This document shows, one piece after another, positions 32,653 to 64,000 of a DNA stretch of 64,000 nucleotides. Both the position numbers and the translations under genes were made by a program. The stretch's first letter is position 1. Each line of letters opens with the position of its first letter. This stretch comes from Saccharomycodes ludwigii (Eukaryota > Ascomycota > Saccharomycetes > Saccharomycodales > Saccharomycodaceae). The stretch covers positions 1,784,404 to 1,848,403 of the forward strand of contig NC_060202.1 of assembly GCF_020623625.1 (NCBI RefSeq). The letters run 5' to 3'. The notes under the pieces were generated by a model. It was not told the DNA's origin. It saw only the letters and a program-made list of their open reading frames with translations, and did no database searches.

Positions 32653-33070
32653 TATTGGGAAAAATCGGGGTCACCGATTAAACCCGCTTTATTATTCAAG
32701 TTACTAGACATCTTAATATCTAATAGTTACTCTTTTATAATAATTGTTCGCTTCCCTCTTTATATAATTCCTAACTATATAATTATATAAAGAAATAATT
32801 TTAATTAATATATTCTTAATTCTTAGTTTTGTGTCCTTTATATACCTTGATTTCCCTGTTTCAATCAAGGTACACCAGTTCGGGTATATCGTCATAAATA
32901 GGGGCTTGAGTGTGTAATATGACGTCATCAAATTATTACCGATATAATTTCGGGATTATTACCCCTAATTATTCGATAGTCCATATTAAACATTTATAAT
33001 ATTCCTTGCCGATAATCCATCGGGAAATAAACGGTTCAATTATTGGACAGACAATGTCAAATGTCCAACA
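32653..33070 (-). repeat. 3' LTR (418 bp)
   Basis: Identical by eye to 37726-38143. It contains a TATATA-type promoter core near the middle (about 32838-32844). The 72-codon frame in each LTR is not considered a gene. Confidence 0.95.
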
Positions 33071-33089
33071 TCCCCCATATTGATGAAAA

Positions 33090-36000
33090 TCAATACTCAA
33101 AATTTTTCATAAACAGTTTAATATTATCCTTATGTGGAGCAAATTTCGTTAACACATCAGCCGGATTTGACTTAGATTCAACAAATTTTAAATCAAATCC
33201 AATATTTCTCATTTGTTGTCTAGCTCTATATGCTCTGATTCCATGAAATTTATCTCGAAATTTAACAAAAGTATCAGCTTTACACAATTTTATTGCTGAT
33301 TGATTGTCACAATACAATTCTTTAGTTATCTCAGAATAATATTCTTCTAGTAATGGGATCCAGTATTCAAACTTCAAGGATGCCTCGTTTACTACATATG
33401 TCTCGGCTTCAGTAGATGACATACACGGAATGCTTGTAGTACCTGTTTTGTATCCTACAAGAAGATTGTTCATGTATACCATGTAGCCGTACTGACTTTG
33501 AAACTTTTCACGATTACCATGTGAAGCATCTACTATAATCTTAAAATTTCCTTTAATTATATCATCATATCTCCAAATTAATTTGTGGTTTCTCGTCCCC
33601 CACAAATAATTAATTGTTTTGTGTAACAATTTCATAATTTCTTCTGTTGGATATAGCTGATAACTTGCTAGTACATTTACGACGAAGTTTATATCAGGTC
33701 TATATTTGCCAACAACATAATTAAGCAATCCTACAGCTTTTCTACATTTTTGTATTTTCTCAGCTAAGTCTACTGAGTCAATTTTCAATTTCTCTGGTAG
33801 CTTGAAGTCGTAAACTAGGGGTAAGCTTGTAACCTTATCACTCAGATTGAAACCTAACTTTGGGAGTTTTTCTTCCAAAGACTTCCCCATAGTCATTGAC
33901 AAATGACTACCAACCTTATATTCTATTTCTAATCCAAGAATATCATAAATAGGTTCACCTCCATCATTGACTGTTTTAACCGTGTAGCGCGTATTCAACA
34001 TAGCAACCAGTTCTTTAAAATCACATTCTTTGGAGGAGACAACCACCATGTCATCTACAAATAGGCCCAAAAGAATGGTGTGTTTGATACCTTCAACACC
34101 ATCGTAATTCTTTTGATACAATGAAGGCCAAAATTCAATTTCTTGAAAACCTATCTGGATTAGAAAACTACTGATCTCTTGGTTCCAGAGATATCCACTT
34201 TGGCGTAGGCCATATAGACTCTTTCTTAATTTGAACAACATGTTCTTATATCCATAGACCTTAGGTGCCTTAACATACAATTCAGTGTTTATTGGAGCAT
34301 TCAAGTATGCGCCTTGAATATCCAATTGACCCAAATGCCAACTATTTGTCAAAACCATGTTAAGTAAAAACATCAATCCATCCTGAGCTAAGTTTGATGA
34401 GCTCAGAGAATCTTCGTATGTGGTTGCATCCTGGACATCTCCGCGCGCACAAATACGACATTTATACTTTCCAGATCGCTTGACATTGAATAATATTAAT
34501 AGTGGCACAATCTTTGATTGATCAACACTATCTACCGGAATGGGTTCCCCACTATCCCAAGTGTTAGATCCTTCTAATACTTCAATTTCTTTCTGCATTG
34601 CCATTAAATATTGATTCTTAATGTTAGGATCGCTAAGACGATAAACCTCGTGCAAATATAACGTCTCATTACGTATATGTTTGACATCAGCAGAGTTATT
34701 TCGTGCTGATTCCATCACTGCTAGAATCTTAGCTAACCTAATCTTTAATCTTTTTCTGGCTGTGACCATTGAGGGATCCTCTTGAATGGAGGCAAATATT
34801 TCCTCGGTGGTCATTTTTCTTTTCTTGTTGTTAGTCTGAACAACCCAATTGGTACTGTCAATAACACGAGGTGAATCTGATGATTCATTCTCAGAGTTAG
34901 AAGCAGAATCAGAATCAGAATCAGAATCGGATTTAGATTTAGAATCAGAATCAGATTTAGAATTAGAATCAGAATCAGATTCAGTGTTCGCATGTTCATT
35001 GACTTCATTGGATTTAATGTCGACATCATCGACTTCTTTTTCATTCTTATTAACGGTAGTCTGAGGTCTACCAACTGCAACATCAATACCATCACTTGGT
35101 ACATATTCTTCAGTGTCAGTAACACTATCTGTTCTTACACTACTCTCAGTGTTTGCCTCATCAACATCAAGTGCCTCTTCAGAAGTAGTTTCTGTATCTC
35201 CATCATATTCATTCCCTTGATATTCCTCATGTGAATCTTCACGTGAGTAATCAGTAATAATAGGAATAATTTGTTCCGATGAATCCTGATCAGTGGCAGG
35301 TATTACTTCTGCACTTTCATTGTGACTTTCATTTGTTTGACTACTTAATGGTTCTACTCTATTAGAATCCAATGAATCGTCTTTGGAGATAAGTTCATCA
35401 ATAAATTCGTCAATTACATTTTCTTGACATTCACCACTATTGAATGGACTTTTACATAGAGAAATACTAGAACTATCAACTATTCTCATTAAGGATGGCA
35501 CCCATACTAAATATCCAAAGGATGATTCAGATGGTGCCAAAACATAAGCATCTAAACCTCTCTTCTCGATCTTGTCATGAGTAGGATGATGTAAGATTAC
35601 ATGACTCCCAAATGGCAAGATCTTTGCGACATTCAATTTTGGTATAGACATTAGTTCTCTTGGAGAACATCCTGTATCGTTGCTGGCTGCAATAATACCA
35701 TTTCTCACATAACAACTAAATAATACCGCATAAAACCACAAATGTCTTGGTAAATTGGTATTCCCCATCAATGTTCGAGCATCATTTAATAATGTCAAAT
35801 TGAGGCGTTCGGCCACACCATTACCTCTTGAGTCACCAGCTGTATTATTTAGTAATTTAATACCAAATTTTCTCAAATATGCCATAACCAATCTATTCTT
35901 GTATGCCAAACCGTTATCTGTTTGAATATACTTGATTGATTTACCAAGGTGCTTTTCAACATACGGAACAAAAACCTTCAACACCTTCAAAATTGCTTCT

Positions 36001-37784
36001 GCAGATTTACTCTTTAGTCCATACACAAACTTGAACTTTGATTTTTCATCTGTAAAGCTTATAAACGAATGATAGTACCCTTTCTTAATATTACTCACAG
36101 ATCCAAATAGATCTGAATGGAAGTACTCACCGACTTCATAATATTGTTGGGCAATCGCTCTGCTACCAATAATATGGTTTTTATATCTGGATTTGCCTTG
36201 CATACACGTCACACAACCAAAACTATTGACATTCGACCAGTCAATATCATCGTAGTTAATACCTACCAAACAACCAGACTTGAAGCTTCTTTGTAGATCC
36301 TTAACATTTACGTGTCCTAACAAAACATGTATGTGATCCAGATTAAATTTTTCTTTAGACTTTGCTGTTCTCACCGATATGTTGTTCGGTGGAACAACCC
36401 AATTTCCAGGAAAGTAAATTGAATGTTCTCTTTCCTTCAAGTTTCCAACAAAACTATTATCCTTAGCATTCTTTATGGATAATTCTTGTTCATTTACAAT
36501 CAGATTGCACTCCTTTAAGCTTGCCCTACTGATAACTGGATCCATAGATTCATTAGTTACTCCGACAGCTCTAAACTTAATCTCGTTACCATTGATATTC
36601 ATGAACAAGTCGCCTACATATGGAGCATCAATAATGTTCTTATTGAAGTCCGTTAACGAAAAACGTGTGTTTTTATTTAAATTGTGCAACAAACTTTTAT
36701 TCACAATAGAGAAATCAGCTCCCGTATCATACAAGATATTCGGAAATTTCTTAATTTCAACTCTCAAAACCTTCTTAGTGCAGATAGGCCTAAGACTAAT
36801 TTCAGTGAGACCTTCCTCAGTCTCACCATCCTGATTATTAACATCAATACGACTAACTTTAGTCATATTCTCCTGATTGTTAACCAGCTTAACTTTACCT
36901 TTGGTAAGTGTCGAGGCATTAGATTTAGAACTATCCTTTTTCACAATAAGACTAGGACATTCATTTTTATAATGACCCTCCTTGTTACAACTGTAACACA
37001 CTACCTTTGCTTTGGTACTGGATTCGGTCATGAATCCGTAATCATCATGTTTATGACTACGACCATAAGCCTTAACTTCATTATCAACTCTTGACCTTAC
37101 TGACTTGGTCTTTTTGTACTGATCATACCGTTTGACAATGATATCCAATATGTCTTCTAATTTGACACTTTCTAATCCATTATACTGATAATCAATATAA
37201 TCACTAATGTTAGCGTAGGCTCCTTTCAAAGATTTAATGAGACGGTATTTTATTTCATAGTCACTCATTGGTGCACTGGATGCTTTGGTTTTAGCAACTA
37301 ATCTCAATAAACTTTTCTTGAAGATCTTAGCATTTTGTGAACCATCGTAGTGTAACTTTTTCCACTCACGACAAATACTGTCATAGCTATCTTCATCATC
37401 TTCATCAGAATCCTCATTCGCCAACTCAACTAACATATCATATGGTTGCGAATCCTTAAATTCACGGGGAAAATAAGCTTGCTTTTGGTAAAACAAGTTA
37501 TTTATACATCTAATCACAGTTTTGCTAGGGCGAACGCCGTTTGGACCAACATCAAATATGTATTCAAGGCCACGGCTAGCAACTAGATCTAAAAATACTT
37601 TACAGAAACTTCTAAAATTGCTCCTCGGAACATTTCTTTCATTAATTGTGAAATAGGAAGTTAATAATAATCTCTTGATAGTCTTGTCATCTTTGACAAC
37701 ATTACTATCCTGGGCAAAATCACCATATTGGGAAAAATCGGGGTCACCGATTAAACCCGCTTTATTATTCAAGTTACTAGACAT
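33090..37784 (-). CDS. Gag-Pol polyprotein of copia element, single frame
   Basis: A 1564-aa uninterrupted polyprotein. Order: Gag; zinc knuckle CYSCNKEGHYKNEC (263-276); aspartic protease DTGA (353-356); an HHCC integrase zinc finger (HVLLGHVN...CVTCMQGK); an integrase DDE core (HSDLFG near 558, QTDNGLAYKN near 622, NGVAERLN near 660); a Ser/Asp/Glu-rich linker (about 820-1000); reverse transcriptase (QLDIQGAYLNAP, LRKSLYGLRQ, the catalytic FVDDM near 1243); and RNase H (IVDASHG, SSTEAE, LYCDNQSAI). The integrase-before-RT order defines the copia group. Gag and Pol are in one frame with no shift or stop between them, unlike Ty1. Translation starts inside the 5' LTR; the first 19 codons lie in it. 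The stop is 20 bp from the 3' LTR. Confidence 0.96.
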   Translation of the reverse strand: MSSNLNNKAGLIGDPDFSQYGDFAQDSNVVKDDKTIKRLLLTSYFTINERNVPRSNFRSFCKVFLDLVASRGLEYIFDVGPNGVRPSKTVIRCINNLFYQKQAYFPREFKDSQPYDMLVELANEDSDEDDEDSYDSICREWKKLHYDGSQNAKIFKKSLLRLVAKTKASSAPMSDYEIKYRLIKSLKGAYANISDYIDYQYNGLESVKLEDILDIIVKRYDQYKKTKSVRSRVDNEVKAYGRSHKHDDYGFMTESSTKAKVVCYSCNKEGHYKNECPSLIVKKDSSKSNASTLTKGKVKLVNNQENMTKVSRIDVNNQDGETEEGLTEISLRPICTKKVLRVEIKKFPNILYDTGADFSIVNKSLLHNLNKNTRFSLTDFNKNIIDAPYVGDLFMNINGNEIKFRAVGVTNESMDPVISRASLKECNLIVNEQELSIKNAKDNSFVGNLKEREHSIYFPGNWVVPPNNISVRTAKSKEKFNLDHIHVLLGHVNVKDLQRSFKSGCLVGINYDDIDWSNVNSFGCVTCMQGKSRYKNHIIGSRAIAQQYYEVGEYFHSDLFGSVSNIKKGYYHSFISFTDEKSKFKFVYGLKSKSAEAILKVLKVFVPYVEKHLGKSIKYIQTDNGLAYKNRLVMAYLRKFGIKLLNNTAGDSRGNGVAERLNLTLLNDARTLMGNTNLPRHLWFYAVLFSCYVRNGIIAASNDTGCSPRELMSIPKLNVAKILPFGSHVILHHPTHDKIEKRGLDAYVLAPSESSFGYLVWVPSLMRIVDSSSISLCKSPFNSGECQENVIDEFIDELISKDDSLDSNRVEPLSSQTNESHNESAEVIPATDQDSSEQIIPIITDYSREDSHEEYQGNEYDGDTETTSEEALDVDEANTESSVRTDSVTDTEEYVPSDGIDVAVGRPQTTVNKNEKEVDDVDIKSNEVNEHANTESDSDSNSKSDSDSKSKSDSDSDSDSASNSENESSDSPRVIDSTNWVVQTNNKKRKMTTEEIFASIQEDPSMVTARKRLKIRLAKILAVMESARNNSADVKHIRNETLYLHEVYRLSDPNIKNQYLMAMQKEIEVLEGSNTWDSGEPIPVDSVDQSKIVPLLILFNVKRSGKYKCRICARGDVQDATTYEDSLSSSNLAQDGLMFLLNMVLTNSWHLGQLDIQGAYLNAPINTELYVKAPKVYGYKNMLFKLRKSLYGLRQSGYLWNQEISSFLIQIGFQEIEFWPSLYQKNYDGVEGIKHTILLGLFVDDMVVVSSKECDFKELVAMLNTRYTVKTVNDGGEPIYDILGLEIEYKVGSHLSMTMGKSLEEKLPKLGFNLSDKVTSLPLVYDFKLPEKLKIDSVDLAEKIQKCRKAVGLLNYVVGKYRPDINFVVNVLASYQLYPTEEIMKLLHKTINYLWGTRNHKLIWRYDDIIKGNFKIIVDASHGNREKFQSQYGYMVYMNNLLVGYKTGTTSIPCMSSTEAETYVVNEASLKFEYWIPLLEEYYSEITKELYCDNQSAIKLCKADTFVKFRDKFHGIRAYRARQQMRNIGFDLKFVESKSNPADVLTKFAPHKDNIKLFMKNFEY

Positions 37785-38143
37785 CTTAATATCTAATAGT
37801 TACTCTTTTATAATAATTGTTCGCTTCCCTCTTTATATAATTCCTAACTATATAATTATATAAAGAAATAATTTTAATTAATATATTCTTAATTCTTAGT
37901 TTTGTGTCCTTTATATACCTTGATTTCCCTGTTTCAATCAAGGTACACCAGTTCGGGTATATCGTCATAAATAGGGGCTTGAGTGTGTAATATGACGTCA
38001 TCAAATTATTACCGATATAATTTCGGGATTATTACCCCTAATTATTCGATAGTCCATATTAAACATTTATAATATTCCTTGCCGATAATCCATCGGGAAA
38101 TAAACGGTTCAATTATTGGACAGACAATGTCAAATGTCCAACA
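37726..38143 (-). repeat. 5' LTR (418 bp)
   Basis: The element's upstream LTR, driving transcription leftward. It includes the ATG and first codons of Gag. It is matched to 32653-33070 without gaps. Confidence 0.95.
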
Positions 38144-50519: not shown

Positions 50520-53500
50520 GCTTTATGCTTATTTTTTTTGTCAATATGATTTTACTCCTTTTTGATCAATTTTTTTTAAATTTTTTAAGTTCATCAATTT
50601 TTTTTTGTTTTCATCACAATCATTTAATTTTTATATGTATTTTCCTTAAGTTTGTTATAGTTCGTTTTTTTTACATATATATTAATATAAATTAACTTTT
50701 ATAAACAGTTATTTTTAACAAGATATTTTTTTTTGATAATATGGGAATACTTTTTTCTTGTTTCTCATACTAATTTTCTATTTTGATTTTTCTTCCACTG
50801 ATGGTTTTAAAAGTTTAATAATAATAATAACAGTAAAAAGAAGTGTCTTAAACTATGAAGAATAAGATAGATCTATTCTTTTGGAAGTAAATACTCGATC
50901 AATGGGATAATTTATGTTGTGTATTTTAAACCAATAATTCCAAACTTATAAGTCTGCTTAGATTCTATAAAATCGATGTTTATTTGTAACATGATTGGTG
51001 ATAAAGTTTCCCTTCATATATATATTATTCTTTAGTTAACAGGCTCTATGTTTTTTATTATTCCATAAGTCAAGTGTTTGTTAATAATTAGTTCATATAA
51101 GTGCTTGCTTTATCACAATGTATAATTATAATGATATAGTGAAAGACGAGTTTGAATATCCCGCAAGATGCATTCCTTGTCAACAGAGTACTTGTTATAT
51201 TTCATCAACTTTAGCGTATATTAAAGGAAAAAACATACAAATCGAGATCTTGTAATATAGATAGAAATTTGAAAACAATATTGAATAGTATTAATTGTAG
51301 TTTATGGTATTTAATTCATTGTGTATGTCTAATTGAGATGTTGTGATTCATTCATTTTGAGTTTGCTGCTATTTAGTGTTAATTAACAAAAATAAACTTC
51401 ATTCTTTACATATAATGAATTGTAACATAATCCATAAAACAAAACAAACTTGTTATTGGAAACTAGTCTTAAGTTTATTCACTAGGTTTTATCACATCTA
51501 TTATCCTTGTTGCAATATGTAATATTAAACTACTTAGTTTTTAGTTCTCTTTGCTTCATATGTTATCTGAATGCTTGAAATTATTTATGGTCTTGATAGT
51601 TACAATGACATAGTTTCTTTGGTAAATTTATAAAATATATTGGGTGAAAACTTGGTGCATTTCTAACTCTCCATAACTCTTGAAATAACTGGTGTTCAAA
51701 TGCAATTTCACTTTCTATATTTTATGTTAGATAACATTTATTAAAGTTTTATTGATAAAATAACATTGTGAATTTAGATGATATTTTTGAGCGAACGAAA
51801 AAAAAAAAATTATTTCTTTGGCTGCAAAAAAAAAAAAAAAAAAGATTTGTTTCGTAAAAAATGCTAAATATTTTCAAGCTGTGAATTACCAACAAAGTTA
51901 AAAAAAAACAGTTTGTTGATTATCAGAAATAACAAAACAAAACAAAACAAGTATTTTACACAATTTACAACAACTTACAAGAAATTAGAAAAGTTTTTGA
52001 TCAAAAAACAGATATTCAGGTAGTATTTAAAAAAACTATCAAAATACGAAATCATATCTACATTTTCAAAGAATGTTTCAACTAGATATATACTGATTGG
52101 AGTGAAGAAAAACAACACTATAAAGGGGCTGTTTATTATTATTTTGTTATTCTAGTGGATAACCATTGCGTGTTTGTTGGAATCATAATGACTGTACTGG
52201 AGTGAAGGACCATATTGTTAATAATAAGCACACATCAATATTTACATGTCATCCAAAATATAAGTGGTGTATAACTGATTAAGCATGATAAAAGTTTAAA
52301 AACAAAAGATACACTGAAAACACAAAAAGTGCCTATTTATTAAAGTATCAATTCACAAATCAATCAAATAACAAATAAGGTTATACTGTGCGATCTGACA
52401 CCTGAATACTTTTATTATATTTAATTTTTCATTCTAATACTGCGGATCTGTATAGCATTGGTATTACCACTTATAACTTTGTTTCTAATTACTATTTTAA
52501 AAAAGTGGGTTAGTAATAAGGCTTTTCTTTTTATTCTAATATCCTACTAGATCTAGAACTGACAACACACATACTCGGTTTATATCTACTGAGTGTATAC
52601 CAAACATTACTGTACCTAGAAATATTCAAAGATTCAGTGATATTTATGAAGACCAGCTATTGCATACATAAAATCTAAATGTGCATGTCAATTTATATAT
52701 TCTATTCATCAAAAAAAGGTTTATTACAAAATGACATTATATGATTAGTGTGGAATTTGACATTCTGATTTAGGTTGAAATGGACTTTTTTTTTTTTCCT
52801 CCCTAATTACAGGAGTAACACAAGTATTATTATGGAATATTGTATCAATATATTGGGAAATATGTTTACCTGGACAAGTGAGTAAGTAACAAGTTTATTT
52901 GTGATTTATTGTGTGACTAACATGAGTTGGTAAGAAATGACTTACTATTAGAAAGAGAAGGATATTTATTTTGACTAAAATCAAGGGCATTGCAAATAAT
53001 ATAATGAAACATATATTTTGTTACACTTTTAGGCACTTCACAGTACTGAATCTTAATTAATAATTACAGTCTATTTTGTTTTATATGTTACCAATTCAAT
53101 CATTTGAAATTAATAAGATCATCCAATTGTGGAAACGCAGTAGTGATCTTGTTACATAGCAGTTGTTGAAAAACTTATACAAAACTGGGATGTGTATTTG
53201 TGATACCAATTTCCTTCATTTTCTTTTTTCACCACGTACATTATTTTGTGAATAATATTTACAGGAAAATAAAAGAAGATTGTATTTGGAGCACGATTAT
53301 TATTGCTATTGATCAATATTCTAAATGTATTTTTGTGGAATAGCAGCAATCAATCCAAATCAGCAAAACACTTGACTACCATGTAATTCTAGTTTTTAAT
53401 GACATTTTGAACTGAGATCAAGTTAGATGATTTTTGTAAACAGATCAAGTGTAGTAACATTTTATATTTGTTGGTAAAACAGGAACCTTGACGTATCTTT

Positions 53501-55340
53501 TTAGTATTTCCTGTAATTTTTACACACACATGCTTTATAAGCTAGACAGGATTATTGTCAAAATTTTTAAATTGTTAGTGGAGATAACAATACTGATTTA
53601 GAGATTGTTTTTGAGAACTTATCACATGAAAAGAGACAGAGAGTTTTGTTTCATATCTCTTTACGAAACACATCATCATTAATACAAGTACAAATCAGAA
53701 ATAATAGATCATTTAACTCCCATAGCTTTTGGCCAATCACAACATTCACATTTCTGTGTTTCAAACTGTAAGATATTTTATCACTTATCATAACATCAAA
53801 ACATCTGAAATAAGGAAACAACAAAAGAAAGATGTGCTATATAGAATAGTTTGTGAACAATTGCCTTGATACGAGGAGACATAAGTTACCACTTATTTGT
53901 TGATGCTATAAGAATAATCTCTTTTGTGATGGTTTGAACAGACAAGTAAAAAATAAAACTTTAGGTGAAATAAGATCTAACAAAGTGTGGGTCAATAATG
54001 TGTAATGTACAATCTATTTTACGCTCTTGGATAACAAATTCTTGGGTGAAATGTAAATCTTGCTTGGTAACATTTTTACCAACTTGAAAACTATCCGAAC
54101 CTGTAGAGTAAATAATTGAGATTGGGGCATATTAGTGATCCAAAAACAATATAGTAATATGGCAATATTTATATGATTGTTCAGTGGACTAATAAAAGAC
54201 TTTGAGACAATGTATTAAAAAAAAAAAGCTCCATATTCCGTAAAAAAAAACAACATATTTTGTAATAATATGCACAACACTTAAGTGCATAGCCCAGTTT
54301 ATTTGATATTTCGGTAGAACACTTTTCAGACTGTTCAAATGCAGTTAATTTTATTATTTTGAGCACAATTACTGTTATGCCAAAGCCATGGACAAATAAC
54401 TTTTTTCCCCCTAAAGAGACTTGGATATATAACACAAACCTAGATACAAGTATAGTATTACTCCTGTAGCATGAGTAATATAATTTTCTTTGTATTAATC
54501 TAAACACAAGCTAGAAACGTAAATTCCATTAAAAAACTTGTGAAAATTTCCATTGGTTAACTGCTTGTATTATCAATTTATATTTCTACATTCTGATGCT
54601 GGAAGTAAATTTGGTGTGTGATATTGAGGATTGAAATGGATTTAATATGCATACGCTCACAAAATACAGAACACTCAGATCAACTATATGTTCACAAAAT
54701 TGGCAGACCGCCATAAATTTCCATCAAAGAATTTGGAATTTGTTGCACAGGCACTTTGTATATTTTTTTTTTTTGTATAGGTTATTCGATATAAAAAGTA
54801 TGTGTGTATGAATTAAAGTAATTGTGTAAAGGGTTGTTTTTTTTTTTTTTTTCTGTTCAAATGATTGATACTGTTTCTTTTTTTGTAGTAGTAGTTGTAG
54901 TAGCAACTCGAAATGGAAGATGCGTTTATGCAACCAAAAAAAAAAAAAAAAAAAAAGTGGTTACGTTGTCAATCACGTGCTATTGATAAAAATAAAAAAA
55001 AAGGAGTAAATTGTTTATCGATAAGGTTGTATAGACATAGCAAAGTGTATATAGATTTGTGTTATTCTGGTTAAATATTAAATTGGAATAGTAATTTAGA
55101 TAGACAGGACATACAGAATATAGGATTGCACAAAAGTTAAAAGTTGTTTCGCAGTGTTATTGTAGTTTATCTTGGTTGTTGAAAGTGGGGATGGAAAAGA
55201 TTGAATGAAAGATTAGATTTTTTTTTTTAATTTTTTTTTGAGATAAGATAAGGATGAAACTCGGGTTAAGCTTTGAATGGCAGTGATGGCATATCGGGAT
55301 ATATGCTATTTTCGGACTGCATGATTTTACTTTTTCTGTC
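50520..55340. other. gene desert, 4.8 kb
   Basis: AT-rich sequence with few long homopolymers and no ATG-started frame that looks like a gene. Short frames at 53152-53349 and 54181-54507 (the latter GTG-started) have no family resemblance. One small ATG frame (51118-51255) is listed separately. No tRNA or other RNA gene is recognised. It could be decayed gene sequence or a subtelomeric non-coding domain. Confidence 0.6.
51118..51255 (+). CDS. possible 45-aa Cys-containing small ORF
   Basis: An ATG-to-TAA frame of 45 codons whose central part reads EYPARCIPCQQSTC, with a CxxC plus a third Cys. It is protein-like compared with the surrounding noise, but short, without homology that I recognise, and could be a relic or chance. 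Confidence 0.15.
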   Translation: MYNYNDIVKDEFEYPARCIPCQQSTCYISSTLAYIKGKNIQIEIL

Positions 55341-55500
55341 GTTTTTTTTAGGCTCTAATTTGTGGGTTATTTTTTGGACCCTTTTTTAGGGCCCTATATT
55401 TAACCCTAATTTCTCGACACTATTTTTTTGATCCTATATCTTAGTCTCTAATTGTTTGACTCTGTTTTTTTCAACTTTAAATTTTTAGGGCTTTATTTTT
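55341..55500. promoter_or_regulatory. TTAGGG/CCCTAA cluster, Tbf1-like subtelomeric element
   Basis: A degenerate repeat with CTCTAATT/CCCTAATT starts near 55353, 55404 and 55446 contains TTAGGG (55386-55391, within the palindrome TTAGGGCCCTA), AACCCTAA (55402-55409) and TTAGGG (55485-55490). RCCCTAA is the known Tbf1 recognition sequence in yeast subtelomeric (STR/core X) repeats. The function here is inferred. Confidence 0.45.
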
Positions 55501-56127: not shown

Positions 56128-57206
56128 TAAGCATTCCTTGGGAACAATTGTGGTCTCTGAACCAGTATCATACATGATATCTCTAATTTCAGACTGAGCA
56201 GTTTTTAAAACTTTCTTAACCAATCTAAGCCTAAGGGTACTTGATGGCGGGTGATTTCCTCTCTCTCATTAAATAATTTAATCTCTTTGATTTTAACTTC
56301 TTTCTCCTTCAACTCAGGACAATTAGGTCTGATATGTCCTTCTTGTCGACAATTATAGCAAACAACAGGTTTATTACTGCTAACATTTTTAGCAAAACCT
56401 TCATTGGATCTTTTGTTATAGATACCTTTTTTTTTCTTATAATTTTCCTTATCACGAAAAAATTGTCTGGCAAACGGATCTTTATCAAATCTACAGGTTA
56501 TTGCAATTTCCTTTTCCTTTTCATGATATATATTTGTGATAATTTCATAGATTTCTTCAAAGTCAACGTCTAACTTACCACGGTTTAGGAGCAAAATAAT
56601 ATCCTTAACTTTGTGATAATCTTTCTTCATAGATGCCATAATCCTTCTTTTCATCTCATATTCACTCATCTCACAATCGTACTTCTTGGTTCTAATTATC
56701 AAATTTTTTACCTTAGTGATGTAGTTCGCTGCACTAACGCTACCATCATAATACAAGTTGGACCATTCCTGGGAAATTTCTCTTATAATTGATGTTTTGG
56801 TTTTATCATAAATACCGGCATCAATATCAAGTAGAAGTTGCAAACCATCCTTTGTGCTAGCCCCATTTGGAAAGCAATCCCTATGATATAATAAGAATTC
56901 GTTTATAAAATTTAACGTCTCTGATCCATAGACGGATTCAGCATTCTTTTCAAGTAAACACCCTAAACCATTAAGTTTCATTTTCAACAATAAACCTTTC
57001 ATATGAAAGATGAAATCGTTTTTTTTTATATCCGTATAATTGCTAGAATATAACAAGTTATAAAGCTTGTCGAGTACTTCATCTTTAGAAAGCATAACTG
57101 AATTCCTCTCAGTGTGAGTGCCATGTTCAGATGAAACCTGATCTGAAGTGATATTATTATTATTATTGGAATTATACGGATGGGACATTATTAGTAGATC
57201 AACCAT
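56128..57206 (-). pseudogene. copia gag ORF with protease stub, pol deleted
   Basis: The frame 56205-57206 (333 codons, intact) is a Gag homologous to that of the full element: EWSNLYYDGS, MSEYEMKRRIMASMKKDY and EEIYEIITNIY match its EWKKLHYDGS, MSDYEIKYRLIKSLKGAY and EDILDIIVKRY. It ends with a zinc knuckle CYNCRQEGHIRPNC. A second Met at 57188 is an alternative start. Past the Gag stop, the -1 frame continues with KKVLKTAQSEIRDIMYDTGS, the aspartic protease motif (DTGS at 56158-56169). It is then cut off by LTR-like sequence at 56127. All of integrase, RT and RNase H is absent. It is a relic or a gag-only derivative; an intact Gag could still be made. Confidence 0.85.
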
Positions 57207-57319: not shown

Positions 57320-58120
57320 AAAATATTTATTTATTCGAGATTTATATGAGTGAGTTCTTGTGGGACACAGTGTATAATTATTTTATTTATGAGAGAAATT
57401 ACGATGTCTGTATTTTGTTTTATTTTTATATATTTGTTATTTTTTTTTTGAGCGAGTAGAATTTATTAAAAAAATTTTTTTTTGTTTTTATTTCTCGTTT
57501 AGTAATTTATAGATTGGGAAAATAGGATCACGTGGATTATACAAAAAAAGAAATTTTGTTTCATTAAAAATTAATATTTACTTTTTGAAATTATTTATTA
57601 GGAGATACGCGCGATGGGATTAGATTGCTACTGCTGCATAATGAACGTATAACAAGCAAACAAATACAATCAAGAAGAAAATATACGACACAGTAATAAA
57701 CGCGAAAAAAAATATTAATTGAACTCACAGAAAGCGACGCATTGAGAAGGCGTACAACTACCAAATAAAAAAAAAAATAATAAAAAAACAAGCGAGTTAT
57801 TTATACGAGATTGGATTGGGCACCAAATATTTTCACGATGTAAAAGAAGCGGGTGGCAAATAAAGAAAAAGTTGTATTTCAATTAGCACATTACACAACT
57901 TGATTACATTGATTACATTCATTATACAAAGTGTATATGTAATAAGAAACAAGTAAAATACACAGAATAACAAGTAAATTAACATGAACCAAGAAGATTA
58001 TTAGAGTTTACAACAATTTAAAATAAAAAAGACAGGGTTGATAGGTGGATTACATTATGGAGAGTGTTTGAAAGAAGAAGGAAAGATCACGTTTTTTTTT
58101 TATTTTTTTTTTTTTTAAAT
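57320..58120. other. subtelomeric spacer, no gene
   Basis: AT-rich sequence with normal C content (57600-58010 even C-rich relative to G on the plus strand) and T tracts. A 66-codon minus frame (57591-57791) is not supported. Confidence 0.5.
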
Positions 58121-59819
58121 TTAGTCAGGATTTATTCGAGCAAGTGAGTAAGTGAGTGATTGTAGTAGATATTTTGTTTTAGATTTTATTTTATTTGTAG
58201 GAATTATTAGGATATTTGAGTTTTGAGTTGGGTTGTATTTGGTTGATTATGTTTAATGGTTTTCTGTGTGGGTGTGATTTCTTAAAAAAAAATTTTTTTC
58301 TTTTTTTCTTTTTTTTCTTTTTTTCTTTTTTTTCTTTTTTTCTTTTTTTTCTTTTTTTTTTTTTTTTTTTCTTTCTCAGTTGATAATTTATGAAAATAAT
58401 CATGTGACTGTTGTAGCTTAGTTCGTGTGTGTTCTTGTTTGATCACGTTGTGCTTTTTGCGCGGATCAGATTTGTTAAAAAAAATATTTTTTTTTTGTCG
58501 GATAACAAGTTGTGTTTTTTTGCACGTGTAAGATTTGTTAAAAAAAAAATAATTTTTTTTCTTTGGTTGATAAGTTATTAGAGTTGTTAAGAAATGATGA
58601 GTTGAGTTGTATGGATTATGCTTGAAATATAAATTTACAGGTTTATATTAGAGCTAGTGATTATCATTGATATGACTGATTATTTAATTAAAAGGCATAT
58701 GATATGAGGAATTAATTGGATAATATACAAGATATAAGAACACATTGGATAAAAAAAACAAACAAAGAGACAAGGATATGATAATATTATTAGTGATAGT
58801 TATATTGAGAGGATAAGTGGAGTCTTTGACAAACAGGTTGGAGTTATAGTGGTGGATAATTGAGTTGAGTTGTGGAGAAAGTAGGATTTATTATTATTAT
58901 TCTTTTTATTTTGTTAGGTGATGAGATATTTTGATAGATGATATATTTAATAAATGCAATTATTATGAATGATGGGATTAGAAATAGTATCAAAAGTATG
59001 ATGGGATTAGAGTTAGGATTATAATTATGATGGGAGTATTAGTATATTTATAGATATGAAGACGAGATTAGTATAATAGGATTAGAGTTGAAATTGAATT
59101 ACTAGAGTATTGGGATTATTTATTTATTGAATTATAGATAGGGTGAGATTATTAGTTATATTATGATTACTATCGTACTTAGATTACAAGTGAGTTGTGA
59201 AGATTTATACAGTCGAATTAGAAATGTATTTAGATGATAAGTGAGTTGAGATTGTGTATTGGGAGATGTGGGTATGTTAGAATTATGAATGAAGTATATT
59301 TAAATATTGGAGATATTTGGATTGAATATGGTGAGGGATTCTAGATGGAGTATGATTAGAAGTATGTTTGAGTTATTGATATATTATTAGTATAATTGGA
59401 ATTGGATTATAGATAGTGTGGAGTTATTGGATATTGAGATTATAAAAACATATTGACCATGATACAAGGATTATTGATAAATTTGGATAATTATTATACG
59501 GATAGTATAAGTATATTAGAATAGTTATTCTAATGAGATAATTATTAGATTGGGATTATGAATATATTTGAATAATTAGTATGTTAAGGTGACAAGTAGA
59601 TTGGTATAACTATTGATATAGATGGAATAGAAGTGGGGTTAGACAATAAAGATATTTGGAGGATAAGTATTGGATATGATTATAAATGTAGAATGAGACG
59701 ACTAGGATATAGAGTATAAGAGTGGTGAGACATGATTATAAATGCTATTGAGATTATGAATATGAATATGAATATGAATGATTATTATAAATACAAATTG
59801 GGGATATGATTAGTAGAAT

Positions 59820-60830
59820 GATTATTGGAGTGATACAATAAATATATATGGAGGATAATTATACTGAGACATTCAGAGTATTATAGTTATGAGGATTTAT
59901 TTTGGTTATAAGGATGGATGGATCGTTATTATGATATGATTATAAATGCTATTGGGAGTATGATATTGTTATTATAAATATAGTAGAATAATTATTGGAG
60001 TGAGACAATAAATATATATGGAGGATAATTATATTGAGATATCTAGAGTATTATAGTTATGAGAATTTATTTTGATTATAAAGATGAATGGATAGTTATT
60101 ATGACATTATTATGAATATTAATGGAGGATATGAATATGAATATGAATGGATGATAATTATAAATATGAATTGGAGATACGATTAGTAGAATGATTATTG
60201 GAGTGATACAATAAATATATATGGAGGATAACTATATTGAGACATTCAGAGTATTATAGTTATGAGTATTTATTTTGATTATAAAGATGGATGGAAAGTT
60301 ATTATGACATTATTATGAATATTAATGGGGGATGTGAATATGAATATGAATGGATGATAATTATAAATATGAATTGGGGATACGATTAGTAGAATAATTA
60401 TGATATTGGCATGATAAATATAGGAGAATGATTATTAGAGTGAGACAATAAATATATATGGAGGATAATTATACTGAGACATTCAGAGTATTATAGTTAT
60501 GAGGATTTATTTTGGTTATAAAGATGGATGGATAGTTATTATGATATGATTGTAGATGTTATTGGGAGTATGATATTGGTATTATAAATATAGTAGAATA
60601 ATTATTGGAGTGAGACAATAAATATATATGGAGGATAACTATATTGAGACATTCAGAATATTATAGTTATGAGTATTTATTTTGATTATAAAGATGGATG
60701 GATAGTTATTATGACATTATTATAAATATTAATGGAGGATATGAATATGAATATGAATGGATGATTATTATAAATATAAATGGAGGATTATTTGATTGAG
60801 ATTATCAATTTATATATATATATAGTATAA
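59820..60830 (+). repeat. tandem composite repeat, ~170-240-bp units
   Basis: Five copies of a block containing ACAATAAATATATATGGAGG, at about 59834, 60004, 60208, 60446 and 60616. Each is followed by ATTCAGA.TATTATAGTTATGA (or TATCTAGA) and a GGATGGA-containing segment. Spacing alternates between about 170 and 205-240 bp because of an optional GAATATGAATAT-rich insert. Confidence 0.85.
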
Positions 60831-62879
60831 GGATATGAATATAACAAACATATTATTATTATAAGATTAGTGGGATAATTATTATGAATGGATGGATGTT
60901 GATAAGTTATTAGTTGATTTAGATTATAAATATATGTGGAATATGAATATATTAGGAATAATTATTATATGATGAGTGGTATAAGTATATATGAATTATA
61001 AGTATAGTGGGAATAATTATTATATTATGAGAGTAGGTATATTATAATTATGTATTTATATTATAAATAACCAAGTAATGTAAGTACATATGAATTATAA
61101 ATATATATAGTATAGAAATATTATAATCAAAGTATAGTAAGATAATAAATATATGAGTTGTATAAGTATATTATAATTATAATATATGTATTATTAGTAT
61201 ATTATAGATATAAATATATAAGTAGTATATTATAATTATAGTTATAAATATATAAGTAGTATAATTGAATAATTATTATATATAAGTAGTATAAGTATAT
61301 TATAATTATAAATATATAAGTAATATAAGTATATTATAGTTATAAATATATAAGTAGTATAATTGAATAATTATTATATATGAATTATAAATATAGTAGG
61401 GATAACTATTATAGATATAATATAAATAACTTGTTAATATTATAAGTATAATAAGATATTTATAATATTGAAATTGGAAATATTATTGAGAGTATAAGTA
61501 TGAATTAATAATTATGATGTATGGATAATAACAGTTGATTGATAAGTATTATATATAGGATATTATTACTATAATGATATTGGAAGAATATATATAGTAT
61601 AAGAATATTGTTGGGATTACAAATATTAGAATAAGATGGTTAGATATGGATTAGTATTATTGTGATTATGGATATTGGAAGAAGATTATAATTATAAAGA
61701 TATTATTATTATTATAAATATATTATGAATAATTATTATATAATGAGTACAAGAATATTATTGAGATTATAACTATAAGAATAAGATGAGTATTATATAT
61801 GGATTAGAATTAGTATGTGAATTATTATAAGGATATAGTTATGAGTATAAATATAAGAGGAGGATGATTATAATAATATTGTTGGTATTATTAATATGGA
61901 ATTAAGATTATTAGTATAATGGTATTATTAATAGTATAGATATGAAATTAAGATTATTATTATAAAGATATTACTATTATTATGAACAAGAGAGTAAGAT
62001 GATTATTATATATGGATTAGTATTAATATAATAATATTGTTGGTATTATAAATAGAAGAAGAATATTATTACAAAGATATTATTATTATTATGAATATGA
62101 GGGTAAGATTATTATTGTATATGGATTGCTATTATGAATGTGAGAGTAAGATTATTATAATAATATTGTTGGTATTATAACTAGAAGAAGGATATTATTA
62201 TAATAATGTTATTGGGGTAATTATGAATATGAGGGTAAGATTATTATTATATATGGATTGCTATTATAATTATAATGATAATATGGAATTAAGATGATAA
62301 TTATATATGGATTACTGTCATTATTGGAATATTATTGAGGTTATAAATACAAAAGTAAGATGATAATTATATATGGATTACTGTCATTATTGGAATATTG
62401 TTGGTAGTATGAATATTAAAAGAAGATTATAGTTATAAAGATATTGTTATTATTATGAATATGAGGGTAAGATGATTATTATAATGGTATTATTAATATT
62501 ATAAGAATATTGGAGGGATTATGGATATTGGAATAATATTATTATAAAGATATAATTAGTATAAATATGAGGATAAGATGATTATTATTACTATTATGAA
62601 TATGGAATTAAGATTATAATTATATCTTTAGTATAAGATTATTATTGAGATTATGAATATGGAATTAAGATGATAATTATGAATATGAGAGTAAGATGAT
62701 TATTATATATTTAATATTAGAATACTGTTGAGCTTATAAATATATGTAGTATAATAATAGTGTTGGTATTATGAATACTAGAACAAGATGATTATTATAA
62801 AGATATTATTATTATATATAGATTGGTATTAATATGATTATTATGAATATGAGAGTAAGATGATTGTTATATATGTAGT

Positions 62880-63095
62880 ATAATAATAATGTTGAGATTA
62901 TAAATATATTTAGTATAATAATATTATTGTAGTTACTAATATATTAGTTCATATATGTAGTATAATAATATTATTGTAGTTATGAATATATGTGGTATTA
63001 TAATAATGTTGAGATTATAAATATATTAATTCATATATGTAGTATAATAATATTATTGTAGTTATTAATATGTTAGTTCATATATGTAGTACATA
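62880..63095 (+). repeat. short tandem duplications
   Basis: TTCATATATGTAGTA recurs at about 62948, 63030 and 63077, and GTTGAGATTATAAATATAT at about 62890 and 63009. Confidence 0.8.
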
Positions 63096-63394
63096 TTTAA
63101 TATAAAGATGATTAATGAGATTAGAAGTGGAAAATGATTGGGATTAGCAAGGTGGTATAAGTGGGAGTATATTTGGATGAATAATTGAGATGGAATTAGA
63201 AGATATTGGGGATAATTTGTACATTTTGATTATAATGGATGTGGGATAAATATATTGGTGAGAGTATAATGAGTTTGGATTAGAAATATATGGACAGGGT
63301 TAAAAGAGATTGGGTGTGGGTATAAATATATATTGACGAGATTAGAAAGCATTTGTGGTAGAAATATATTGGGATAATTACGATATGGTGAATA

Positions 63395-63910
63395 TAAATA
63401 TAGTCGGATTAGCCATTACTCGGGTTATATGTATTCGGATAAATAATTGAGTCGGCTTACACGATACTCGGGTTATATACACTCGGATAAATAAATTGGT
63501 CGGATGATGAAGTATTCGGGTTATAATATTCGGATAAATAAATTGGTCGGATTGTGAAGTATTCGGAGTATAATATTCGGATAAATAATTCGGTCGGATT
63601 ACAAAGTATTCGGGTTATAATATTCGGATAAATAAATTGGTCGGATTGTGAAGTATTCGGGTTATATTATTCGGATAAATAATTCAGTCGGATTATGAAG
63701 TATTCGGGTTATAATATTCGGATAAATATTTTGGTCGGATGATGAAGTATTCGGGTTATAATATTCGGATAAATAAATTGGTCGGATTGTGAAGTATTCG
63801 GGTTATATTATTCGGATAAATAATTCAGTCGGATTATGAAGTATTCGGGTTATAATATTCGGATAAATATTTTGGTCGGATTATGAAGTATTCGGGTTAT
63901 AATATTTGTG
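63395..63910 (+). repeat. 47-bp subtelomeric tandem array
   Basis: About eleven copies of a unit beginning CGGAT..TGAAGTATTCGG and containing ATTCGGATAAATA. Unit starts are 63395, 63453, 63501, 63548, 63595, 63642, 63689, 63736, 63783, 63830 and 63877. The period is exactly 47 bp from 63501 on and looser before. The last units repeat as trimers: 63642 equals 63783 and 63689 equals 63830. Confidence 0.95.
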
Positions 63911-63940
63911 TGAAGGTGGGGAGTCGAATTGGTGAGTAAG

Positions 63941-64000
63941 TGTGGGTGTGGGTGTGGGGTGTGGGTGTGTGTGTGTGTGTGGGTGTGGGTGTGGGTGTGG
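63941..64000 (+). repeat. telomere repeat tract, G strand
   Basis: Irregular TGTGGG/TG repeats (TGTGGGTGTGGGTGTGGGG-like, with a TG run in the middle) up to the window end. These are heterogeneous TG1-4 repeats of the budding-yeast kind, with TGTGGGTG matching the Rap1-binding style. The strand and position mark the right chromosome end. Only about 60 bp are present, so the assembly probably stops inside the tract. Confidence 0.9.

Follow-up and report, generated by a model that had tools for sequence, protein, structure and literature searches.

A C-depleted subtelomeric domain of Saccharomycodes ludwigii and its probable origin from an old C-free tandem array

The right end of contig NC_060202.1 of S. 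ludwigii, analysed here in a window of 64,000 nucleotides, carries next to the telomere a domain with almost no C on the strand directed towards the telomere. With a probability of roughly 70 %, we regard this domain as an old C-free tandem array, which forms the outer part of an element shared by the chromosome ends, was spread by recombination and is slowly gaining C. The ends are homologous in this region, the domain is periodic, its orientation is uniform and the recent polarised changes contain no excess of C-to-T.

Composition and borders of the domain

The earlier note had described the plus strand as nearly free of C and frequent in G, and the base counts for 58120-63394 agree with it: 2029 A, 140 C, 1011 G and 2095 T, which corresponds to a GC skew of 0.76. 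The background skew, taken in windows of equal length with a step of 25 across 1-58119, ranges from -0.26 to +0.125. Purines and pyrimidines number 3040 and 2235 in the same interval, T being as common as A, and A and T are about equal in every copy of the domain. Clusters of G are few, with 41 overlapping GGG and no strict G4 motif in the domain.

The bias had also been described as starting well inside the chromosome and continuing to the telomere. The strong domain stands, but its inner border is gradual and the bias weakens before the telomere is reached. A single change point in C content fits best at 58525, and 58141-58500 still has 25 C in 360 bases (12 in 58261-58380 and 12 in 58381-58500), and part of this C falls in a T/C tract. 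In the terminal array we counted 45 C and 119 G, so that the bias is weaker ahead of the telomere; its 35 TC and 34 CG dinucleotides belong mostly to TCGG. The inner start of the repeat array is imprecise, 58.6-59.0 kb. The CACGTG at 57529 is presumably linked to Cbf1/CDEI.

Table 1. Features between the shared element and the chromosome tip (positions in the window)
Feature	Position	Strand	Basis or remark
Inner part of the end-shared element, not strongly C-poor	57468..58524	+	alignments, divergence
CACGTG in ATCACGTG context	57529..57534	.	identical in 10/10 copies covering it
T-rich tract, T(7-8)C with a period of 8-9 bp, inner border	58293..58376	+	
Second CACGTG	58523..58528	.	identical in 12/12 copies covering it
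C-depleted domain, degenerate minisatellite	58525..63394	+	change point, autocorrelation, unit models
Terminal array, 47-bp unit in ~11 copies with 14-bp and 17-bp sub-periods, TCGG motifs	63395..63906	+	
Telomeric repeat, GTGTGG-like, heterogeneous	63940..64000	+	

Repeat structure

Self-similarity in the domain peaks at 17, 20, 23, 26, 34, 37 and 40 bp. Compared with 60 order-4 Markov simulations, lag 17 reaches a z of 11.8, lags 23, 34, 40, 20 and 26 also form peaks, and lag 17 is among the highest lags in each of five sub-blocks. In the control region 51001-55500, the top peak has a z of only 3.5 at lag 76, and lags 17 and 20 are absent from the top 22. The periodic self-similarity exceeds that given by composition, as in a minisatellite. 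Seven unit lengths were tried, and 17 bp gave the best fit (gain 669), with 637 for 23 bp, 635 for 20 bp and 356-515 for 11, 14, 16 and 18 bp; simulated sequences gave gains of 297-344 in 6/6 cases, with fewer restarts and iterations than the real fit.

The unit is 17 bp long with steps of +3 bp, its consensus is about GATTATAAATATATTGG, and it is free of C, which stays at or below 7 % at every position. The unit is nevertheless weak, with no consensus at positions 15-16. The C that does occur lies mostly at T-consensus positions (75 of 109, posterior-weighted), which make up 2006 of the 4815 bases. Training on the distal half gave a model that scored +0.050 per base on the proximal half versus -0.022, -0.037 and -0.038 for a reversed copy and two simulations, but its consensus string was a different one, a further weakness of the unit. 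Over 58601-63400, 4 of the 24 bins of 200 bp score below the order-3 background. Adjacent copies are strongly degenerate, and the local arrays given by Tandem Repeats Finder have many different periods.

Searches with two consecutive units, the counts of which are lower bounds, yielded at least 47 matches; 46/47 are no more than 10 kb away from a contig end, and these 46 are all telomere-oriented and occur at all 14 ends with the domain, while the reversed-pattern control gave none. Expansion of a C-free minisatellite, one of the two causes proposed in the earlier note, is thus upheld by the periodicity, the C-free 17-bp unit and the location at ends, but not in the form of a recent expansion, as the array is degenerate and not a recent one of near-identical copies.

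When the unit was re-estimated with the domain model as the starting point, the terminal 47-bp array fell into the frame of the unit, an outcome which such a start favours; the distal-trained model gives no support for a shared frame, and under it the array scores below background (-0.152 versus -0.080 for its reversed copy). We rejected the idea that the domain arose from TCGG units through C-to-T, since A, G and T are nearly equal at unit position 15, and it is also disfavoured by the two varied bases before GGATTA in the domain.

Copies at other chromosome ends

The domain is present at 14 of the 16 contig ends, always with G on the telomere-directed strand. The two exceptions, C7 right and C8 right, are tips without a telomere repeat, that is, uncapped breaks, and C7 right ends within adhesin-like repeats. 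The claim that the skew lies on the same strand as the telomeric G repeat is therefore borne out at 14/14 subtelomeric ends, all of which agree in sign; ends without skew or with the opposite skew, which would have spoken against it, were not seen among them.

Homologous copies in uniform orientation at most ends, here 14/16, are what characterises a shared subtelomeric element of the Y'/X/R-like kind. Alignments begin at query position 468 in 9 of the 13 other ends, on which the element start at 57468 is based. The copies differ by 1-14 % between ends, and 57468..58524 is among the most conserved stretches, with 0.4-1.0 % differences from the column majority. C1 right carries parts of two element copies. 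Retrotransposon LTRs sit inside the domain in both orientations and have an ordinary C content.

Substitutions and the origin of the skew

Before counting, we masked two HSPs at 69 % identity (C6 left and C2 right) together with 231 bases of low local identity, and dropped columns with too few copies or a majority below 70 %. The two most divergent copies served as outgroups, although the ends may exchange sequence, and a column entered the singleton sets only if the outgroups agreed and no more than a single copy deviated. Noise in the alignment of AT-rich repeats imitates composition, for which reason unfiltered singletons were set aside and the conclusions rest on the flank-filtered ones.

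Among recent polarised changes, C was gained 25 times and lost 4 times (p 1e-4), and in the same set G was gained 56 times and lost 58 times. These numbers are small: under stricter filters the ratio of C gains to losses was 15:3 (p 0.008), 11:2 (0.02) and 8:1 (0.04) when one outgroup copy was required, and 12:3 (p 0.035), 8:2 (0.11) and 6:1 (0.13) when both were.

There is also a weaker telomere-polarised asymmetry: recent changes that create G outnumber those that create C about 2.7-fold (40 versus 15), a feature not required of a pure relic. If an active process at every end filtered C-creating changes, be it selection for a structureless strand or copying of C-free units in end-to-end recombination, this present 2.7-fold deficit would be its trace. 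We consider such a process possible but unlikely; copying from C-free units could mimic the bias.

The second cause proposed in the earlier note, long-term C-to-T change, fared worse. Here ongoing C-to-T on the telomere-directed strand, single-stranded in putative TERRA-like R-loops, during 5′ resection or in lagging-strand replication, would keep the domain C-poor. The sign of the skew is right for it at 14/14 subtelomeric ends, the mirror changes are unequal (T-to-C 27/18204 versus A-to-G 51/17284, p 0.004, at flank 5; 17 versus 34, p 0.011, at flank 8; 13 versus 22, p 0.13, at flank 12), and a count over every variant copy gives C-to-T at 9.6 % of C and G-to-A at 3.5 % of G, a 2.7-fold difference. 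However, the recent polarised changes show the same rate for C-to-T (3/657, per C) as for G-to-A (32/6779, per G), so that the C-to-T footprint of an R-loop-forming region is not seen in counts with which a 3-fold excess is still compatible (P 0.04 to 0.54), and C is being gained rather than lost. With C loss as the only bias, the composition would require a 7.5-fold excess, which is improbable (P 4e-5, 1e-3 and 4e-4 with one outgroup; 0.05, 0.07 and 0.02 with both), and a smaller one would suffice if C creation were also suppressed. The domain has no surplus of T, because A and T are about equal, and the few G clusters and the ordinary C of the LTRs also argue against this cause. Seven LTR copies in the domain show 4 C-to-T versus 8 G-to-A, shared changes being counted each time, which are too few changes for the insertions to serve as a mutation clock. 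Altogether we judge continuing C-to-T improbable.

Still less probable is selection for a C-free strand, in which resection, replication or annealing between ends would benefit from a single strand without structure or from a transcript that lacks C. The predicted folding of single strands is weak, with means of -5.6 (G strand) and -4.0 (C strand) kcal/mol per 150 nt, compared with -8.9 in 52 GC-matched windows (p 8e-5, G strand) and -9.5 after half of the G was swapped for C, and changes creating C are fewer than those creating G. Yet single copies are accumulating C, LTRs with ordinary C sit in the domain in both orientations and the copies differ by 1-14 %. Very improbable is a telomerase origin, in which the array would be the fossil of an ancestral 17-bp telomeric repeat that persisted after a change of the telomerase template. 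The unit has about three G, is very rich in AT and does not resemble the present GTGTGG repeat, even though the array adjoins the telomere in the same orientation at 14 ends, is C-free and has stepped unit lengths.

In the reading that we favour, the old C-free array would have started from a unit close to 17 bp in length, variable by 3-bp steps, whose telomere-directed strand lacked C. The array may have expanded by slippage or by unequal or rolling-circle copying, and it may have spread between ends by recombination, either break-induced replication or roll-and-spread. Point mutation would have been eroding it since, adding C mostly at T positions. The skew would then be inherited from the unit, and its extreme value would be maintained by copying of C-free neighbours rather than produced by deamination that still goes on in an exposed strand. 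Poor folding of both single strands, a prediction, would be a likely by-product.

Comparison with known chromosome ends

The nearest analogue would be the strand-biased subtelomeric R element of Kluyveromyces lactis, which was reportedly described by Nickles and McEachern in 2004 as distal subtelomeric, strongly biased in strand composition and present on nearly all ends. The S. ludwigii domain resembles it in all three respects. The bias of the R element is reportedly one of purines versus pyrimidines, whereas here only C is missing, T equals A and a strong purine/pyrimidine bias is absent; the length of ~5 kb and the 17-bp unit also set our domain apart from the R element as described. The Y' and X elements of S. 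cerevisiae are likewise subtelomeric, shared by many ends and sometimes tandem. In contrast, the S. ludwigii element is a degenerate minisatellite with a skew near 0.8. The Y' element has a helicase reading frame; no closed ORF of at least 120 aa is listed between 57207 and 64000 here. An asymmetry associated with replication, reportedly described for S. cerevisiae by Gierlik in 2000, is similar as a telomere-polarised composition bias, but the bias in S. ludwigii belongs to a single repeat element.

GC skew is also known from the chromosome ends of Encephalitozoon cuniculi, where replication and/or transcription were proposed as its cause (PMC4704409). This strand asymmetry at ends is the point of likeness; the E. 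cuniculi ends are GC-rich and gene-bearing, and the available part of that paper does not mention a C-free minisatellite. Searches of open-licence papers gave no earlier description of the C depletion.

Implications

Fourteen ends in one genome provide a natural replicated test of exposed-strand mutation versus sequence history as the source of an extreme skew. For the skew near these telomeres the answer leans to history, and therefore skew alone should not be taken as an R-loop footprint. S. ludwigii is reported to have almost no meiotic crossing over (PMC8567612). That its ends nevertheless have sequence in common would turn the array into a marker of exchange between ends.

Composition and borders of the domain

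The C-depleted domain lies at the right end of contig C3 (the window spans C3:1784404-1848403), where the plus strand runs toward the telomere. We counted 2029 A, 140 C, 1011 G and 2095 T on this strand between 58120 and 63394, which bears out the C-poor, G-rich composition first noticed by eye; GC skew in windows of equal length across 1-58119 ranged from -0.26 to +0.125. C content shows its strongest single change point at 58525, and the initial 400 bases from 58120 onward are of mixed composition and include a T/C tract. The earlier note has the bias continuing to the telomere, but the skew drops again in the terminal array of 47-bp repeats (63395-63906, 45 C versus 119 G), where C is found mostly within TCGG. 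The window terminates in a GTGTGG-type telomere.

Distribution among chromosome ends

The assembly comprises 12,500,424 bases in 8 contigs (C1-C8), and the genome of S. ludwigii NBRC 1722 is described as 12.5 Mb in 7 chromosomal scaffolds with 30.9 % GC and telomeric repeats at 9 ends (PMC8567612). The earlier note proposed comparing skew across chromosome ends. We identified the domain at 14 of the 16 contig ends (left ends of C1-C8, right ends of C1-C6), with C at about 1-3 % in several 500-base bins, and the skew had the same sign at all 14, the G-rich strand always running toward the telomere. Nine of these ends terminate in telomeric repeats, as judged by eye. Among the 16 ends inspected, only the right ends of C7 and C8 had neither domain nor telomere repeats. 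C7 breaks off there within adhesin-like repeats, which by eye resemble those of the 2071-aa frame (see table), and C8 (26,468 bases, one subtelomeric end) may be its missing right end.

The domain forms the outer part of an element common to chromosome ends. Nine of the 13 other ends align to the window from 57468 onward and two from 57566; for C5 left and C1 right the alignment begins farther out. C1 right carries portions of two element copies. The aligned domain part of each copy contains 1.8-3.1 % C and 17-23 % G, with A about equal to T. Pairwise identity after masking was 86-99 %, and divergence was 0.4-0.6 % over the inner 900 bases, peaked at up to 5.9 % near 60.8 kb and was 0.9-1.6 % past 62 kb, so the copies are shared but not identical. 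In the inner element, CACGTG at 57529 and 58523 was identical in 10/10 and 12/12 covering copies, respectively.

Repeats and open frames in the window and at other chromosome ends
Feature	Position	Strand	Remarks
Two 413-bp LTRs flanking a 1564-aa frame	32657-38142	- (frame)	Both LTRs 97.8 % similar to the query LTR; probably an LTR retrotransposon
Open frame, 2071 aa	44304-50519	+	Contains a 135-bp unit in about 29 copies, plus another block of 132-bp repeats; resembles flocculin-type adhesins
Frame with CCHC zinc knuckle	56205-57206	-	Probable remnant of a retrotransposon gag, immediately internal to the shared element
LTR copies, ~413 bases	Within the domain at C2, C3, C4 left and C2, C4 right	Both
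LTR copy	Between element copies at C1 right

A degenerate 17-bp unit

Self-matches of the domain peaked at 17, 23, 34, 40, 20 and 26 bp (z 7 to 12 against 60 order-4 Markov simulations), a series of single (17+3k) and double (34+3k) units; lags 17, 34, 51 and 68 are already visible in block 58581-59750. In the control region 51001-55500 z did not exceed 3.5 (reached at lag 76), and the top 22 lags included neither 17 nor 20. A circular unit model fitted best at 17 bp out of seven lengths tried and beat six of six simulated sequences, for which fewer restarts and iterations were used. The consensus is about GATTATAAATATATTGG, with C at 7 % or less at every position; it is only approximate, because the distal half fitted alone gave a different string. 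Four of 24 bins of 200 bases (58601-63400) scored under the order-3 background, and since 58601-59000 is among them, the array's inner boundary is uncertain. Sub-periods of 14 and 17 occur in the terminal array, which retains the frame of the unit in a re-estimate started from the domain model; a distal-trained model scored it lower than its own reversed copy.

Searching the genome for a two-unit pattern with up to 3 mismatches gave at least 47 matches (counts are lower bounds), 46 of them no more than 10 kb from a contig end. The latter are all telomere-directed and reach all 14 domain-bearing ends; the sole internal match has three mismatches, and the reversed pattern gave 0 matches genome-wide. 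Of the two causes suggested in the earlier note, expansion of a C-free minisatellite is supported by the periodicity and by a 17-bp unit lacking any C-rich position, but the unit is degenerate and its consensus approximate.

Recent substitutions

The other suggested cause was long-term C-to-T change on a strand displaced by R-loops. We polarised changes unique to one copy using as outgroups the pair of copies that had diverged most, C7 left and C1 right, with at least one present and outgroups in agreement. Of 657 C sites 3 had changed to T, and of 6779 G sites 32 had changed to A (flank 5). C gains exceeded losses by 25:4 (flank 5, p 1e-4) and 19:4 (flank 8, p 0.003), with G at 56:58 (flank 5). 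Six stricter filters left the direction unchanged with lower support (p 0.008 to 0.13). The ratios were 15:3, 11:2 and 8:1 when one outgroup copy was required and 12:3, 8:2 and 6:1 when both were. Were the bias confined to C loss, accounting for the composition would take an approximately 7.5-fold C-to-T excess ((2095/140)/(2029/1011)), which is improbable (P 4e-5 to 0.07, six filters); a 3-fold excess is compatible with the counts (P 0.04 to 0.54). Two results speak against the origin that we favour below. When all variant copies were counted, C-to-T amounted to 9.6 % per C versus 3.5 % per G for G-to-A. Recent changes at A and T sites also created C less often than G (15 versus 40; flank 3, one outgroup), so a loss bias below 7.5-fold would suffice. 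From the latter set we estimate that the present process would reach equilibrium at about 8 % C and about 20 % G, or a skew of roughly 0.4. This figure is rough, being based on only 3 losses, and would place G near balance and C below it. Simple C-to-T loss from ordinary DNA would also leave T far above A, and this is not observed. With per-site C-to-T no higher than G-to-A among recent polarised changes, C gains exceeding losses and no T surplus, long-term C-to-T change is not upheld.

The LTRs within the arrays have ordinary composition on their own strand (C 16.6 %, G 13.3 %). On the telomere strand, seven copies, with shared changes tallied in each, showed 4 C-to-T, 8 G-to-A, 15 T-to-C and 8 A-to-G changes; because there is little difference among most of the copies, which are probably young insertions, this test of mutation is weak. 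At C2 left, a 5.5-kb insertion with an LTR at each end lies inside the C-poor array, and the array portion displaced to 7.5-9.5 kb from the end retains its skew.

Origin of the domain

We favour, with a probability of roughly 0.7, a degenerate C-free array spread by recombination and eroding by point mutation; the poor score of the terminal array under the distal-trained model lowers this figure slightly. A unit made of A, G and T only would have expanded, recombination would have carried the array between chromosome ends, as we infer for S. ludwigii, and point mutation would then erode it. In K. lactis mutants one telomeric source spreads onto other ends (PMC3486848), and telomere-adjacent repeats are reported to be added in N. 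castellii (PMC6778800). Other budding yeasts are described as having faster substitution in their subtelomeric DNA (PMC2570616), which is consistent with decay. R-loops may form over the domain at present, but G clusters are few, with 41 overlapping GGG, 7 GGGG and 0 strict G4 motifs found in the domain.

Strand-biased subtelomeric elements shared between ends are already a known kind, of which K. lactis has one. Skew at chromosome ends is also reported for Encephalitozoon cuniculi (PMC4704409). Repeats common to several S. ludwigii ends have been published (PMC8567612). What appears to be new is that C alone is depleted, across about 5 kb and in association with a degenerate 17-bp unit, at the 14 ends reaching the domain. 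Weak folding is predicted for the C-free strands and might influence resection or annealing.
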